Source: Solibacteraceae bacterium (lineage in GTDB: Bacteria > Acidobacteriota > Terriglobia > Bryobacterales > Bryobacteraceae). Taken from it: a stretch of DNA of 64,000 nt. Each line of letters starts with the position of its first letter. Within the stretch, counting starts at the first letter, position 1. Of the stretch, positions 23,785 to 30,003 are shown piece after piece. Below the pieces are notes generated by a model that had not been told where the DNA came from, did not search any database, and saw only the letters and a list, made by a program, of their open reading frames with translations. The position numbers and the translations under genes were made by a program. The DNA is taken from assembly GCA_021324015.1 (NCBI GenBank), contig JAJPJX010000211.1:1-64000 (forward strand), given 5' to 3'.

Positions 23785-24540
23785 TCACAGGAGATTGCGG
23801 CCGCGGTCCAACAGGAAGCGCGCGCCGCCGTAGTCGCTGCCCAGGCCCGAGGAGTCGTTGAGCCCCCAATGATACGGGTTGAACTCGATGGCCGTGTACT
23901 TGCCAGGGCGTCCGTAGCGCGACAGAAAATCCGCCAGCGAAAGCCCGCCTTCTTCGAAGTCGCCGCGGTACCACTTGAAGATCATGCTGACGCGGGCCAT
24001 GTGTTTCTCGGGAAAAAACTGGTTCAGACCGCCGGCCGCCAGCCACTGCCGTGTGTTGTCGTCCAGTTGGGCGTCCACGCGCGGACCCGTGTACGCCTCC
24101 GCCCGCAACGGCGGGCAACTGCGCGCCGCGCAGACCAGGGCAGCATGGATGCGGGCATCGCCGGTGCGGCGCAGTTCGGCCTCGATGTCGTCGAGCGAGA
24201 TCTTGCGGCCGTTCAGCACGTGGCGCGCGGCTTGAAAGGGATTGTCCGTGCGCCAGATGCTGGCCACGGGGTAGTTGGCCAGGATCCAGCGGATGGTCAG
24301 CGCGTTGTAGGCGTTGATCATGGCCGCCTTGCGGGCCGCCGGCGTCAGGCCCACGGGCCACGGGCGGCCAAGCAGTGCCAGATACGCGTCCAGCGCCGGC
24401 ACGTCGTGCTGCTTCCAGGCGGCGTAATCCACCAGGTGATGAGTGTTCACGTAGCGCTTCAGCAGGAGATCCCAGCCGGAGTGGTCCAGATCCGCCGCGC
24501 CCCCGAGCGTGAGCGGCAGCAACAGCAGAGCCAGCCTCAT
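23785..24540 (-). CDS. DUF547 protein with signal peptide
   Basis: A 251-residue protein with a short signal peptide (LALLLLPLTLGGA) followed by the DUF547 domain: VDYAAWKQH, KAAMINAYNALTIRWIL, HAALVCAARSCPPL and FNPYHWGLND. The conserved Cys of AARSCPPL is present. DUF547 has no settled function, though it is often found beside thioredoxin-like proteins, as here. The start overlaps the stop of the upstream selenoprotein candidate (ATGA), so the two are translationally coupled. Confidence 0.85.
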   Translation of the reverse strand: MRLALLLLPLTLGGAADLDHSGWDLLLKRYVNTHHLVDYAAWKQHDVPALDAYLALLGRPWPVGLTPAARKAAMINAYNALTIRWILANYPVASIWRTDNPFQAARHVLNGRKISLDDIEAELRRTGDARIHAALVCAARSCPPLRAEAYTGPRVDAQLDDNTRQWLAAGGLNQFFPEKHMARVSMIFKWYRGDFEEGGLSLADFLSRYGRPGKYTAIEFNPYHWGLNDSSGLGSDYGGARFLLDRGRNLL

Positions 24541-25643
24541 TGACGGCGCAGGTCTTCCGGCGAGCGCTGCGCATCCAGCCTCTCGATGTGAAAAATCCAC
24601 TTCAACGGAAGCGTGCGAGGGGCATAGCACATGCGGTCGTCGCAGGCCTGGTAGCGGAAGGAGCCGGCCACGGTGAGCGTGCGATCGGGCCCGAGCAGCG
24701 GCCTGAGGTCCTGGCTGCCGCCGAGAGTAAGGTCGCGCATCAGGCGGAGACGGCCGCGGTAGACGGGCACGGTTTCGCCGATGGCCGCGAGGTGCAGCTG
24801 TTCCGACGGCGGATAGTTGACGGGCCGTACCAGCCAGGCCTTGGGCGCCCGTTCCGGCGTTGGAGAAACCTGCCAATCCACCGGGATGTAGCCGCCTTCC
24901 ACTCCCGGGGCGTACAAGTGCATGCCGGGCTTTAGGTCCACATCCAGCAGGAGCGTCAGGCGGGCTCCCGGCGGAACGGCTGCGTCACTGGCCGACGAGG
25001 TGAGCGTCAATTGCGGCGTCTCGACGGTGGGGCCGGCCTGGCCGGCCGTGCCCCCGAACTCGCGCACCAGAATGCTGGCCGCGGTGTAGCGTTCCGTGTG
25101 GTCGTCCTCGAAATACTTGGCGCGCACGATCCCGTTCACGTCGATCAAGTACATGCCCGGGAACGGCACTCCGTAAGGCATCTCGCCGGGGTGGAAATTG
25201 GTGTTCAGGATATCGAAGGCGCGAATGATGGTGGAGTCGGCATCACCCAGCAGCGGGTAAGTAATGCCCTTGCGGCGCGCAAAGTCGCGCAGCAGGGCCG
25301 GGGAATCGTAACTCACGGCCGCCACGGCCAGTCCATTCTTGCGGTAAGCCTCCTGCTGACGCTGCAACTCGACCAGTTGCGCTTTGCAGTAGGGTCACCA
25401 GTCGGCGGTGCGCACAAACAGCAGCACCAGGCCGTTAGGGCCGCGCAGGGTAGCGAAAGTCTGGAGCTTTCCGTTCTGATCCCGGCCGGTGAAATCCGGA
25501 ATCTGCGCGCCCACCGCCGGACCGGTCTTCAGGTGCAGATCCACCTTCGGGACCGGGCGCAGGCGGGGCTCTTCTCCGGCGCCGGCAAGCAGGGCGCAAG
25601 CCGAGCACACTAGCAGAAGCAGGCGCATGCGTGGCGAAAACAC
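24537..25643 (-). CDS. Thioredoxin-fold redoxin + DsbD-N-like protein, predicted selenoprotein (in-frame UGA)
   Basis: One reading frame interrupted only by a TGA at 25397-25395, codon 83. Upstream it encodes a signal peptide (LLLLVCSACALLAGA) and the start of an AhpC/TSA-like redoxin domain (AQIPDFTGRDQNGKLQTF, LVLLFVRTADW); downstream it resumes in frame with PYCKAQLVELQ, SYDSPALLRDFARRKGITYP and FPGMYLIDVNGIV. Relatives have Cys at the TGA position (CPYC), so the site would be a UXXC redox centre. A SECIS-like hairpin follows. Residues from about 200 match the DsbD N-terminal/DsbC-like domain, with YQACDDRMCYAP holding its Cys pair. The GTG start has GGAG 7 nt upstream; ATG at 25628 is an alternative. 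It is coupled to DUF547. Confidence 0.85.
25364..25380 (-). promoter_or_regulatory. Bacterial SECIS element (apical stem-loop)
   Basis: On the minus strand GCAACT-GGTCG-AGTTGC forms a perfect 6-bp stem with a 5-nt loop beginning GGU, the base pattern bound by SelB in known bacterial SECIS elements. The loop GG lies 20 nt after the TGA, against 18 nt in E. coli fdhF. A lower stem CTGC/GCAG can add further pairing across an internal loop. Confidence 0.8.
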
Positions 25644-25687
25644 GGAGATTCTCCTTACACAAGGTATCATTCCGGAAGAGCCCCGGT

Positions 25688-27412
25688 ATGCGCGCCGCCG
25701 CCGCAATCACCATCCTGGTCCTGCTCCAAGGCGGGTACGCCACTTACCGCAGCCGGCGATTCTATCAGAGCCACACTCCATTTTTCGACTCGTGCTCGTA
25801 CACCAACCAGCTTGCCGAGGTCTACGCGGTGGCGCGCACGCAAGGAGTGGCGGCGGGCTGGAAGAACGCTACCACCAATCGCAACGTGGCGCTGCCGTGG
25901 CTCGTTGCGGCGGTGCTTGCGCCTTTAGTACCGCTCTCGCGCGAGCTGGGAACCTGGATGCAGACGGCGTGGCTGCTGTGGCTGGGTCTCGCGCTGGGCT
26001 GGTATTTCGTACGCTGCCGCGGCGCGGACGCGTGGCTGGCGGTGACGCTGACGTTGCCCTTCCTGAGTTTCGGCGGGATCTACTGCGTGGACGGGGGCCT
26101 GGCGGATTTCCGCATGGATCTGCCGCTGTACATTCTTCTGGCGGCGGCGGGCGCGTGGTACCTGGCAGCGTGTTCCCTGCCCTCCGCCGTGCCTTGGCTG
26201 CTATGCGGTGTCTCGGCCATGCTGGCCTGCCTGACGCGGGCCACCGCCGTGGCTTACCTGGCGGCCATGTTCGGTCCGCCATGGGGGCTTCGGCTGTTGC
26301 GCGCATCCGGCGCCGAACGCCGGGCGCTGCTGGCCGGACTGCCTTGGTTGTTGGCGCCGCCGCTGGCGGCCGTCGCCGTGTTTCTGGGACACAGCTACCG
26401 GTATCTGTATCAGTACTACTTTGTCTGGAGCCCGGACGCCACCGCGCACCTGCCGCCGTGGCGCTCCGCGATTCACCTGGCGCTGGGCCTGGCGCACATC
26501 GGCGTGCCTCTGGCGGCGGCTTCCGTGGCGGTGCTGGGGATTCTGCTGTGGGTCGAGCGGCCGGCGGCAAAGGTTTCGGCAGCCGCGTGGCTGGCGCGGC
26601 TCGACTGGGAGATCCTGTACCTAGGATTGGCGCCCGTGCTGTTGCTGGCGGCGCTCGGAGCCGGGCCAAATCCCTATGTCTCGATGCCTGCGGTGTTCGG
26701 GTTTCTGTCATTCAGCTACGTGCCGTATCGCGGGATTTCGCTGGCCGCGCTGCGGCCGCCGGCGCGCCGCGCTGTGTGCGCACTGCTGCTCGGCGCCTGC
26801 GCGTTCAACGCAACCACGGCCGGCGGCAAGCATCTGCTGGAGCAGCCCCACCTGGCCGGCATGGCCGCCGTGCGGAGCATCCTGGACAGCATCCGCGCGG
26901 ACGCGGCCAGGCGGGGCCTGCGCGAGGTCGCGTTCGTCAATACCTATATCGGGGAGCTGAACAACAGCATGCTGCGCAACATCCTGATTTACGAGTACGG
27001 CGGCATGCCCGCAGGCGGCGGCATCGCGGATCCCTCCGGCATGCGCTTCGGCGGCGCCGCGGATCTCGCTTTCAGCGCCGCGAGCCCGGGAGAATGGGCG
27101 CGCAACGTGCCCGGCGCGACCGACGAGCAGAAACTCTCCGACCTGGTGCGGACGGCGCTCGAGCGTGTGGATTATGTGCTGCTGCCGGACGAGGCCACGC
27201 TGCGCTACCTGGAGAGCCGCGTGGGATTCGTGTATCTGAACGGGAAGGCGCGCGAATTGCGGCGCCGGATTCTGGCCACCGGCAGGTGGACACCACTGGG
27301 CGAGCCGGTGGCCCTCAGCCCGCACGAAACCGTGCGCATTTATCGCAAGGAGCCGGGACCGGAACCTCAGCCCAGGCGGGCGAGTTCCTCCAGGCTGAGG
27401 CGGCCGGTGTAG
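25688..27412 (+). CDS. Multi-pass membrane protein, possibly GT-C type
   Basis: A 574-residue protein with about ten hydrophobic segments (for example LPWLVAAVLAPLVPL, TAWLLWLGLALGWYF, LPWLLAPPLAAVAVFL) and a soluble C-terminal part of about 170 residues. The N-terminal loop holds acidic residues (HTPFFDSCSYTN), as in polytopic glycosyltransferases, but no family motif is certain. The ATG at 25688 follows GGAAGAG; a longer start at 25631 would overlap the divergent selenoprotein gene. Its 3' end overlaps hisA on the opposite strand by 46 bp. Function not recognised. Confidence 0.7.
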   Translation: MRAAAAITILVLLQGGYATYRSRRFYQSHTPFFDSCSYTNQLAEVYAVARTQGVAAGWKNATTNRNVALPWLVAAVLAPLVPLSRELGTWMQTAWLLWLGLALGWYFVRCRGADAWLAVTLTLPFLSFGGIYCVDGGLADFRMDLPLYILLAAAGAWYLAACSLPSAVPWLLCGVSAMLACLTRATAVAYLAAMFGPPWGLRLLRASGAERRALLAGLPWLLAPPLAAVAVFLGHSYRYLYQYYFVWSPDATAHLPPWRSAIHLALGLAHIGVPLAAASVAVLGILLWVERPAAKVSAAAWLARLDWEILYLGLAPVLLLAALGAGPNPYVSMPAVFGFLSFSYVPYRGISLAALRPPARRAVCALLLGACAFNATTAGGKHLLEQPHLAGMAAVRSILDSIRADAARRGLREVAFVNTYIGELNNSMLRNILIYEYGGMPAGGGIADPSGMRFGGAADLAFSAASPGEWARNVPGATDEQKLSDLVRTALERVDYVLLPDEATLRYLESRVGFVYLNGKARELRRRILATGRWTPLGEPVALSPHETVRIYRKEPGPEPQPRRASSSRLRRPV

Positions 27413-28062
27413 ATGGCCATGCCAAGCGCGGCGTGGACATTCATGGACAGCAGTTCGCGCACTTCATCGAGGGTGGTGATACCGCCGGCGGCCGTGAGTT
27501 CGAGGGCGGTGGCCTGCCGCAGGCGCCGGAACCAGGCCAGGTCCGTGCCTTGCAACATACCCTCCTTGTCCACGTAGGTGCACAGGAAGCCCGAGCAATA
27601 GGGCTCCAGCGCGGCCAGCACCTGTTCGGCAGTGAAGTCCGTGGCTTCGCGCCAGCCCTTCACCACGATGCGGCCCTCTTTGGAATCGAGCGCCACGATG
27701 AGGCGTTCGCGGCTCACGGCGGCGGCCAGGGACGCCAGGAAGGCCTGGTTCACGCCCTCGCGGGTGAAGGCGGCGGTGCCGACGATCACTTTGCGCGCGC
27801 CCTGTTCGACCAGCGCCCGGGCTCGCTCGACAGTGCGGACGCCGCCGCCCACGCGGGTGACGGCGCGGCCGGCCAGCAGGCGCACCAGGTCGTCGTTCGA
27901 ACCGCGGCCCATGGCGGCGTCCAGGTCGATCACCTGAATCTCGGGGAAGGCGGCGAACTTGCGCAACATCTCCAGCGGAGCGTCGCCCTCCAGCGCCTTG
28001 TCGCGGCCTTGCACCAGTTGGACCACTTTTCCATCCATCAGGTCGATGCAGGGCAGAATCAT
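27367..28062 (-). CDS. hisA: Phosphoribosylformimino-5-aminoimidazole carboxamide ribotide isomerase
   Basis: HisA is 231 residues, a half-barrel-repeat TIM barrel that performs the Amadori isomerisation of ProFAR to PRFAR. It opens with [19 protein letters not shown] with the catalytic Asp, and the second-half Asp lies in [24 protein letters not shown] is the phosphate-binding loop. The start overlaps the hisF stop as ATGA. It is the last gene of the his operon and converges with a membrane-protein gene whose end it overlaps. Confidence 0.95.
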
Positions 28063-28823
28063 GCGGTCTTCCTCACCGGGATGCCGTGGCGCTCCAGAAA
28101 TTCCTTGAGCTCGTTCACCGTGTATGTGCCGTAGTGGAAGATGGAGGCGGCCAGCGCCGCGTCGGCTTCGCCTTCCGTGAGCACGCGCAGGAAATCCTCG
28201 GGCTTGCCGGCACCTCCGCTGGCGATGACGGGGATATGGGTGGCCCGGGACACGGCGCGCGTGAGTGGGCAATCGAAGCCCTGCTGCACGCCGTCGCTAT
28301 CCATGGAGGTGAGCAGGATCTCGCCGGCGCCCAGCGTCTCGCCGCGCGCGGCCCACTCGACCGCGTCGATGCCTTCGTCGTCGCGGCCGCCGCGGGTGTA
28401 AACGTTCCAGGCGCCCGCCGCGCGCCGCCGCGCGTCGATGGCTAGCACGACCGCCTGCGCGCCGAATTCGGCGCTCAATTCGGCGATCAGCTCCGGGCGG
28501 CGCACTGCCGCGGTGTTCACCGAAACTTTGTCGGCGCCCGCCATGAGAATAGTGCGCGCGTCCGCCACCGAGCGGATGCCGCCGCCCACCGCCAGGGGGA
28601 TGAAAACCTTGCGCGCGGTGCGCGCCACCACGTCGGCCATGATGGCGCGCGCGTCGCTCGAGGCGGTGATATCCAGGAACACCAGTTCGTCGGCGCCGGC
28701 GCGGTTGTAGCGGTCCGCCAGTTCCACGGGGTCGCCGGCATCGCGCAGGTTCACGAAGTTGACCCCCTTGACCACGCGTCCGCCGGTCACATCCAGACAG
28801 GGAATGATGCGTTTGGCCAGCAT
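28059..28823 (-). CDS. hisF: Imidazole glycerol phosphate synthase, cyclase subunit
   Basis: HisF is 254 residues. [20 protein letters not shown] carries the first catalytic Asp, [12 protein letters not shown] and [11 protein letters not shown] form the first phosphate site, and [15 protein letters not shown] holds the second Asp. It uses ammonia from HisH to convert PRFAR into imidazole glycerol phosphate and AICAR. Its start lies 2 nt after the hisH stop and its stop overlaps hisA, consistent with a HisH-HisF complex made stoichiometrically. Confidence 0.96.
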
Positions 28824-28825
28824 GT

Positions 28826-29419
28826 TCAGAGATCCACGAAGTTGCGCACGATGCGCAGCCCCACGGGGCCGGATTTTTCGGGGTGAAACTGCACGCCGAA
28901 CACATTGCCGGATTCGAGCAACGCCGTGTAGGGCACGGTGTAGGTGCAGACCGCGGCGGTCACTGCGGTTTCGGGGACGTAGTAGCTGTGCGCGAAGTAA
29001 ACGTAGGGCTCGGGCCCGAGACCCGCCAGCAGGCGCGCGGCGCGGCGCGGCTCGATGGAGTTCCAGCCCATGTGCGGCACGCGCGCTTCGGCGGAGAAGC
29101 GCCGTACCGTGCCCTGATAGATGCCCAGCCCGCGCACTTCGGGAGCTTCTTCGCTGGACTCGAACAGGCCTTGCAGCCCGAGGCAGATTCCCAGGAACGG
29201 GACGCCCGCGCGGATGCGCCGGCAGAGCGTGTCGCGCACGCCCAGATCGTCCAGGGCGCGCATCATCTGGCCGAAGTGACCCACGCCCGGCAGGATGATT
29301 TTCGTGGCGCTCTCCAAGCCCGCTGCGTCCCGCACCAGGGCGTATTCCGCGCCGATCTCGGCCAGCGTATTTTCGACCGAACGCAGGTTCCCGGCGCCGT
29401 AGTCGAAGATGGCGATCAC
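28826..29419 (-). CDS. hisH: Imidazole glycerol phosphate synthase, glutaminase subunit
   Basis: HisH is 197 residues, a class I glutamine amidotransferase: [19 protein letters not shown] at the start, the catalytic Cys in [12 protein letters not shown], and the His and Glu in [11 protein letters not shown]. The start is GTG at 29419, overlapping the hisB stop as GTGA with AGGA 6 nt upstream; upstream in-frame ATGs would add non-homologous residues. It provides ammonia to HisF. Confidence 0.95.
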
Positions 29420-30003
29420 AGCAGTCCTTTCGTGGAGGGCAACTGATCCTTCAGCCGCCGGTCCGTGGAGCAGGCGTATTTCAAAGCCCGCGCGAAACAC
29501 TTGAAGATGGCCTCGATCTTGTGGTGGCTGGAGCGCCCGTAGAGCACCTTGGCGTGCAGGTTCGCTCCGGCGTGGTTGACGAAGCCGCCGAAGAAATCCT
29601 CCACCAGTTCGGTTTGCAGGTCGCCAACCAGCCGCACCTTCACCAGGTCGCGATACACCAGCGCCGCACGCCCGCCCAGGTCGAGCGCCACCACAGCCAG
29701 CGTTTCGTCCATGGGCAGGACGAAATAGCCGGCGCGGTTGATGCCGCGGCGGTCGCCCAGCGCCCGGGAGAACAACTGCCCCAGCACGATGCCCACGTCC
29801 TCAACGGTGTGGTGCTGGTCCACGTCCAGATCGCCATCGGCGTGCAGGGTGAGATCGAAACCGCCGTGTTTGGCGAACAGCTCCAGCATGTGATCGAAGA
29901 AGCGGATGCCGGTGGAGATCTCGTAGCGGCCGCGGCCTTCGATCTTCAGCGAGCCGCGAATGCGGGTCTCTTTGGTGTCGCGTTGAATAGTGGCGGATCT
30001 CAT
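29416..30003 (-). CDS. hisB: Imidazoleglycerol-phosphate dehydratase
   Basis: HisB is 195 residues and monofunctional. It carries the family's manganese-binding motifs: [42 protein letters not shown] and [13 protein letters not shown]. It lacks the N-terminal histidinol-phosphatase domain of the enterobacterial bifunctional enzyme, so that activity must come from elsewhere, possibly from the HAD gene just upstream. The start overlaps the HAD stop as ATGA. Confidence 0.96.

Follow-up and report, generated by a model that had tools for sequence, protein, structure and literature searches.

A probable exported selenocysteine redoxin fused to a DsbD-N-like domain in an acidobacterial genome

A stretch of 64,000 nucleotides from a Solibacteraceae bacterium of the Acidobacteriota (assembly GCA_021324015.1, contig JAJPJX010000211.1, positions 1 to 64,000; hereafter the window) carries on its minus strand what is very probably a genuine bacterial selenoprotein gene, encoding an exported selenocysteine (Sec) redoxin fused to a DsbD-N-like domain. 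The probability of this overall explanation is put at roughly 0.9. The frame runs from GTG at 25643 to TGA at 24539-24537, and its sole interruption is a TGA at 25397-25395, which stands between ...LLFVRTADW and PYCKAQLVELQ and takes the first position of a UPYC motif. Under translation table 11, the region is divided into a frame of 103 amino acids (from TTG 25706) that ends at 25395 and a frame of 276 amino acids that begins at TTG 25367. A sequence-only reading of the window had proposed a single minus-strand frame passing through this TGA at the position of the redox Cys, and the sequence and its translation agree with that proposal. Judged from sequence comparison, decoding of the UGA at 25397-25395 as Sec is almost certain. 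The elements on which this assignment turns are as follows.

24537-25643, minus strand: candidate selenoprotein gene, redoxin(UxxC)-DsbD_N fusion, 368 residues from the GTG with Sec as residue 83 (TGA-readthrough translation and Pfam).
25395-25397, minus strand: predicted Sec codon UGA, residue 83 (TGA/Cys exchange among 148 aligned loci).
25386-25388, minus strand: partner Cys86 of UPYC (Cys in 107 of 107 long homologues).
25364-25380, minus strand: predicted bacterial Sec insertion sequence (bSECIS) hairpin with a 6-bp stem and the 5-nt loop GGUCG at 25374-25370 (folding, stem conservation, covariation and a scan of the window).

Homologues were gathered from a family search (matches in 82 of 200 genomes at E ≤ 1e-20, the source genome included), a phylum search (matches in 54 of 396 genomes at E ≤ 1e-25) and a contig scan (64 loci). 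Altogether 156 loci were submitted and 148 align across residue 83, some of them being the same gene from two sources. At this codon, 88 loci have TGA and 56 have Cys (42 TGC and 14 TGT). The four other codons (2 ACT, 1 ACA and 1 GAG) come from three distant peroxiredoxin-like loci with Thr (L113-L115, of which L115 has no later Cys) and from the misaligned locus L171. The swap between Cys and TGA, which the sequence-only reading had expected an alignment to reveal, falls at exactly the codon of residue 83, with homology on both sides of the in-frame UGA. In a further set of 28 loci from across the phylum, the same site is TGA in 23 and a Cys codon in 5.

Removal of matches with E > 1e-20, of other codons and of identical 81-nt stretches left 127 distinct loci (82 TGA and 45 Cys). 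The frame continues without a further stop for 260-311 codons, the TGA included, in 81 of the 82 distinct TGA genes; in the other one (L148) the contig ends first. The 107 distinct loci with at least 200 residues from the site onward (82 Sec and 25 Cys) were placed on a tree by a quick method. The Sec/Cys label changes nine times on this tree, at least five of the changes being forced by supported branches; its support is less sure owing to the long branches of L185 and L177. In the contig scan, the titles of the first 27 named loci (L060-L086) are acidobacterial, several of them Bryobacterales. Some loci, with titles that include Gammaproteobacteria and Hyphomonas, hold short Cys forms; these extend only about 115 residues past the site and therefore have no DsbD part.

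Several further observations were made on the homologues. The active-site variants CVYC, UMYC and UVYC replace UPYC in L159 (genome G148), L166, L170, L172 and L174. Outside the window's family, genus g150 (f48 genomes, e.g., L227 and G334) has several matches per genome, with matches at three places in G334, and some of the g150 frames are about 400-500 amino acids long and contain TGA; these matches are possibly an expanded selenoprotein subfamily. Locus L087, titled Bifidobacterium breve, carries a long redoxin of the acidobacterial type, and its bin is probably mislabelled.

The second body of evidence concerns the hairpin GCAACU-GGUCG-AGUUGC at 25380-25364. Its stem begins 14 nt after the UGA and its loop 20 nt after it. 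The 6-bp stem and GGUCG loop reported in the sequence-only reading were both found, and the distance of 20 nt given there is that of the loop start, the stem starting at 14 nt. Of 1302 TGA triplets on both strands of the window, seven are followed by a hairpin of 6 bp and 5 nt that starts 11-17 nt downstream; the one at 25380-25364 is alone in having G followed by G/U at loop positions 2-3. According to the part of PMC13188914 that describes the bSECIS model, such an element has a loop of 3-9 nt with G in the first two loop positions, an upper stem of 4-16 bp, a UGA-to-loop distance of 16-37 nt and a minimum free energy (MFE) of -7.5 or lower. The window's hairpin has a 5-nt loop GGUCG, 6 bp, a distance of 20 nt and -16.2 to -19.7 kcal/mol in three stretches, all within that model. 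With the U of UGA numbered 1, the MFE of nucleotides 15-37 is -7.5 or lower in 76 of 82 TGA genes; the same holds for 3 of the 24 nearer Cys homologues and for none of the 21 remoter ones. The GU of the hairpin is presumably the counterpart of the SelB-contacting GU of E. coli fdhF.

Conservation of the stem follows the codon. Among the distinct genes, the full set of five pairs (19-33, 20-32, 21-31, 22-30 and 23-29) is present in 80 of the 82 with TGA and in 5 of the 45 with Cys; every one of the 23 TGA genes from the phylum set has it as well. Pair 21/31 is A-U in 36, G-C in 42, G-U in 3 and A-C in 1 of the 82 TGA genes; these changes are silent, since position 21 is the third base of a Gln codon and position 31 the first base of a Leu codon. 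Loop positions 24 and 27 fall at the third base of a Leu codon and of what is mostly a Val codon; they are C-G in 42, G-C in 36, C-C in 4 and G-G in none, where independence would give 41 pairs. The excess is 36.9, and the next-best pair of third bases within five codons has an excess of only 8.2. On the tree, position 27 follows position 24 in an average of 10.6 of 12 supported independent pairs that differ at 24, with 0 in the opposite direction; for 21/31, nine independent pairs gave 7.0 changes the same way and 0 opposite. Synonymous resampling with the proteins held fixed produced the 5-bp stem in 31% of cases and the stem together with the 24/27 pair in 10%. The residues QLVEL, which the hairpin encodes, are nearly fixed in the 82 Sec forms (Q 82, L 82, V 80, E 78 and L 82) and looser in the Cys forms, as expected if the RNA constrains those residues. 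A search of Rfam around the gene gave three matches up to E 5, all below the gathering scores and taken as chance.

The third body of evidence is the Sec machinery of the source genome (8.2 Mb in 214 contigs, completeness 98.8, contamination 4.2%). All four genes that the sequence-only reading had named for a search were found. tRNA-Sec (selC) scored 69 bits and was called tRNA-SeC with anticodon tca by ARAGORN, two further matches to the tRNA-Sec family over the cut-off (48 and 47 bits) being tRNA-Ser by the same program. selB scored 381.6 bits, selA 489.4 bits and selD 368.9 bits (L187, contig C212). The selD gene has one in-frame TGA of its own; a downstream hairpin can be drawn by eye with its loop GGU at nt 24-26 from the U of UGA, in the same register as the GGU of the window's hairpin. 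The two outcomes that would have spoken against a selenoprotein, absence of the sel genes and a uniform ordinary stop or frameshift at the codon among close relatives, were looked for and neither was found.

Across genomes, selA was tested in 80, comprising 77 of the 82 with a protein match and 3 with none, and it exceeded the cut-off in 72. Among genomes with a TGA gene, 61 of 66 have selA. The other tested genomes comprise seven with Cys, one with another codon (the misalignment) and six with no gene or with a partial gene that stops short of the site. In genus g25, two Cys genomes (G088 and G169) and one with no protein match (G024), all 96-100 in completeness, have no selA, selB or tRNA-Sec at the thresholds used. 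Loci L032, L034 and L063 (from G169, G088 and a Sulfopaludibacter record) form a Cys clade close to the window's gene. With two tested genomes lacking selA, selB and tRNA-Sec, this clade looks like a switch from Sec to Cys with loss of the trait.

The protein around this codon very probably has a two-domain architecture and is exported, export being judged by eye from the sequence. Its parts are as follows.

25651-25655, minus strand: AGGAG, placed 7 nt ahead of the GTG and likely a ribosome-binding site (by eye).
25578-25628, minus strand: probable N-terminal signal peptide, a hydrophobic stretch from M6 (by eye; predicted helix at residues 5-17, of low confidence).
25089-25514, minus strand: AhpC-TSA/Redoxin domain, peroxiredoxin-like with a thioredoxin fold, residues 44-185 (Pfam and predicted fold).
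24612-24995, minus strand: DsbD_N-like domain, residues 217-344 (Pfam and predicted fold).
24642-24644, minus strand: Cys334, first Cys of a conserved C-x4-C (Cys in 104 of 107 long homologues).
24627-24629, minus strand: Cys339, second Cys of the same motif (Cys in 104 of 107 long homologues).

Pfam assigned AhpC-TSA (PF00578) at 2.4e-28, Redoxin (PF08534) at 2.6e-16 and DsbD_N at 2.2e-8 (34.6 bits). The two redoxin scores of 99 and 60.2 bits compare with cut-offs of 26 and 26.6, and the site is of the UxxC type. Among 24 aligned members scanned, the redoxin domain was present in all 24 and DsbD_N in 22; scanning for DsbD_N covered a part of the 107 tree homologues. The full-length model (predicted local distance difference test, pLDDT, 87.7) matched peroxiredoxins over approximately residues 39-197 (about 150 residues, VIA Z 18-20 among the 50 matches listed), and the 50 best matches listed per fold search were to the redoxin domain only. 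For that reason, the C-terminal domain was modelled alone (pLDDT 93.0). Its five best PDB matches are E. coli nDsbD, the N-terminal domain of DsbD (1l6p, 3pfu, 1vrs and 5nhi), and the N-terminal domain of ScsB (6c29), with E of 7.9e-6 to 1.4e-4 and TM-score of 0.42-0.59 by query length. The next fold matches are unrelated by name, the nearest two having E of 7e-4 and 9e-4, and searching the PDB by sequence with this domain yielded single matches at E 0.82 and at E 0.91, both regarded as chance. Collectively, Pfam and the predicted folds back the redoxin/DsbD-N fusion that had been suggested from the sequence, with the CxxxxC of the second domain, also suggested there, being the pair Cys334/Cys339. 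The DsbD transmembrane domain (PF02683) is absent from the protein's Pfam matches up to E 0.1. The source genome encodes a DsbD of its own in a 697-aa frame on contig C44, which is the sole PF02683 match and has, by eye, a C-terminal thioredoxin part. The DsbD-N domains of the two proteins are 29% identical over 124 columns, with YQTCNDRLC in DsbD and YQACDDRMC in the fusion protein.

These features suggest how the protein may work. SelB would bring Sec-tRNA-Sec to the UGA at 25397-25395, guided by the hairpin at 25380-25364, and the exported product would present a Sec83-Pro-Tyr-Cys86 active site followed by the DsbD-N-like domain with Cys334-x4-Cys339. Sec83 may attack an oxidised envelope substrate, which could be a protein disulfide, a sulfenic acid or a peroxide, and Cys86 may resolve the intermediate as a selenenylsulfide. 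The attached DsbD-N domain would re-reduce the Sec83-Cys86 bond and would in turn be reduced by a membrane DsbD; the source genome encodes one such protein. The net picture would be nDsbD and its redoxin client joined in one chain. Reduction of the redoxin through DsbD electron flow is a chemical proposal to which we give about an even chance.

A different account of the same protein, unlikely on present evidence yet deserving serious attention, holds that it is a classical Sec peroxidase in which the DsbD-N-like domain serves as a structural or binding module and relays no electrons. The peroxiredoxin fold would suit such an enzyme, as would the modest DsbD-N similarity (34.6 bits, and the TM-scores of 0.42-0.59 to the five nDsbD/ScsB chains), but 104 of 107 long homologues keep the Cys pair of the DsbD-N domain, and the active site is of a different type. 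Sec83 aligns with the Thr of TPxC in L113 and L114, and the site is therefore UxxC, as in peroxiredoxin (Prx)-like proteins, and not the TxxU of classical Sec Prx; Sec takes the place of Thr, and the later position is Cys86. Such an arrangement gives a dithiol-type site, which speaks against a classical peroxidase.

Compared to known proteins, the fusion shares each of its halves with described families. A Prx-like thiol:disulfide oxidoreductase (PF00578, UxxC/UxxU) and a Redoxin family protein (PF08534, UxxC) are among the selenoprotein families in Table 1 of PMC13188914, and UxxC Prx-like/Redoxin selenoproteins are also tabulated in PMC9312934. These have the same AhpC-TSA/Redoxin domain with Sec in UxxC, whereas the window's protein adds the C-terminal DsbD-N-like C-x4-C domain and looks exported. 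The two are set apart by description, and the table representative HEU0032618.1, which lay outside the comparison, may share the redoxin/DsbD-N architecture. In ocean metagenomes, a UxxC Prx-like 3 (pfam08534) selenoprotein was likewise described as joined to a Cys-bearing domain, one that contains CxxC (PMC2398784); by the description in that text, its Unknown_3 part has three conserved Cys including CxxC, compared to one C-x4-C pair here. DsbD and ScsB have the same N-terminal fold and Cys pair as the C-terminal domain of the window's protein, in which, unlike DsbD, the N-terminal part is a Sec redoxin and the Pfam matches include no transmembrane DsbD domain.

Thiol oxidoreductases of the ResA/TlpA/CcmG type share the thioredoxin fold, and ResA is among both the sequence and the fold matches, but the window's protein differs from them in having Sec for the first Cys and a fused domain, and peroxiredoxins outrank them in the fold searches. 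CcmG is a client of nDsbD. The best NCBIfam match, SelL-related redox protein NF040769, reached 45.7 bits, far under the cut-off of 120 bits, which places the protein outside that family. TsoB (NF045694), described as rhodanese/DsbD fusion-like, is by its name in the table of PMC13188914 a selenoprotein with a DsbD-like part; the rhodanese partner and the UxxxxU motif are its own, and NF045694 was not among the NCBIfam matches up to E 1. For Acidobacteria, passages in print mention three selenoprotein families with four proteins (PMC1794560) and three known selenoprotein genes in one acidobacterial species (PMC12013277). A redoxin/DsbD-N selenoprotein is not named in the passages covered of PMC1794560, PMC13188914, PMC9312934, PMC5029168, PMC12013277, PMC8659212 or PMC2398784. 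Within the literature passages covered, UxxC redoxin selenoproteins are known and the DsbD-N fusion appears to be new.

Downstream of the selenoprotein gene lies one further feature to be considered.

23785-24540, minus strand: DUF547 gene whose start overlaps the stop of the selenoprotein gene as ATGA, a local neighbour only (Pfam PF04784 at 1.9e-19 on the longer frame 23785-24876).

The stop/start overlap is real, and the sequence-only reading had described the two as coupled. That the selenoprotein and the DUF547 protein form one system is, however, very improbable, as, of the 103 long homologues for which 600 nt or more of downstream sequence was available, only the window's own was found to have DUF547 beside it (tblastn at E ≤ 1e-4, a threshold that could miss remote DUF547 versions). 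DUF547 was accordingly set aside as a conserved partner and looks like a local neighbour. No cluster of open reading frames (blastp, E ≤ 1e-15) recurs in six or more of the 107 loci, many of which have only about 1-1.5 kb of flank. Plasmid and phage collections contained no record in which a single place covers 80% of the query. On the other side of the gene, a divergent plus-strand frame at 25631-27412 resembles a membrane protein; its GTG at 25631, if a real start, overlaps the selenoprotein start by 13 bases, but translation may instead begin at an ATG further on. Minus-strand frames at 27367-30003 resemble a histidine biosynthesis cluster (hisA, hisF, hisH and hisB).

Several observations weigh against the selenoprotein assignment or the proposed role of its second domain. 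First, the support for Sec decoding is drawn entirely from sequence and comparative data. Second, the sel genes are on contigs other than that of the window, in an assembly that is fragmented and 4.2% contaminated. Third, the trait and the codon do not coincide in every genome. Five TGA-gene genomes show no selA (G030, G040, G142, G158 and G164); selB is over the cut-off in four of them (not G040) and tRNA-Sec is present in four (not G158), so that none of the five lacks both. In four further TGA genomes, where the tests covered selB and tRNA-Sec alone, just one of the pair was seen, G072 and G172 having selB over the cut-off with no tRNA-Sec, and G130 and G179 having tRNA-Sec with no selB over the cut-off. 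Sub-cut-off selB matches in G040, G130 and G179, with frames of 380-403 amino acids, were left out of the selB counts; this is presumably the size of EF-Tu. Conversely, five of the seven Cys genomes keep selA, the other two lacking it. The sel genes missing from TGA genomes are likely to reflect incomplete assemblies. Fourth, the folding energy of the hairpin is unremarkable compared to shuffled sequences (z -0.78, -2.07 and -0.91 for the three stretches), and outside the window's family positions 24/27 are Watson-Crick in only 16 of 23 TGA genes. Folding energy was dropped as proof of a SECIS element, and it is the comparative data that carry this claim. Finally, no conserved gene neighbourhood among the 107 loci ties the DsbD-N domain to the Sec site.

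Two other readings of the UGA itself fare worse. The codon might be read as Cys or Trp by an opal-reading tRNA or a reassigned code. Homologues that have no TGA carry Cys, and the search for UCA-anticodon tRNAs covered the tRNA-Sec family only, both of which leave some room for such decoding. However, the gene's own stop at 24539-24537 is TGA, so TGA also serves as a stop; the covarying hairpin suits SelB, and a suppressor tRNA would need none; and two Cys-codon genomes lack selA, selB and tRNA-Sec. Together these observations leave Cys or Trp decoding scarcely plausible. That the UGA is an ordinary stop, leaving a pseudogene or two genes split by a nonsense mutation, accords with table 11, which ends the frame at 25395 and opens the next at TTG 25367, and is nonetheless very unlikely on the comparative data, hardly credible at all, given the same TGA in 88 of 148 loci, a frame open for at least 260 codons in 81 of 82 TGA genes, the downstream Cys334 and Cys339 conserved in 104 of 107 and the Sec machinery in the genome.

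For a selenoprotein of this kind, a broader picture may be drawn tentatively, at somewhat less than even odds: a widespread acidobacterial envelope enzyme, a Sec redoxin with its own nDsbD module, through which cytoplasmic electrons passed on by DsbD would reach a selenol outside the membrane. It would usually have Sec where the sel genes are present, with several switches to Cys, including one in a genus with no detectable Sec machinery. These genes also document cleanly the covariation of a bacterial SECIS element, with a cross-loop pair that flanks the GU in the window's family. If the assignment is true, annotation that takes this UGA as a stop would cut short a large gene family of the Acidobacteriota, and a DsbD-N-fused envelope selenoprotein would join the selenoproteome. 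Furthermore, the natural Sec/Cys exchanges within the family would let the effect of Sec be compared.

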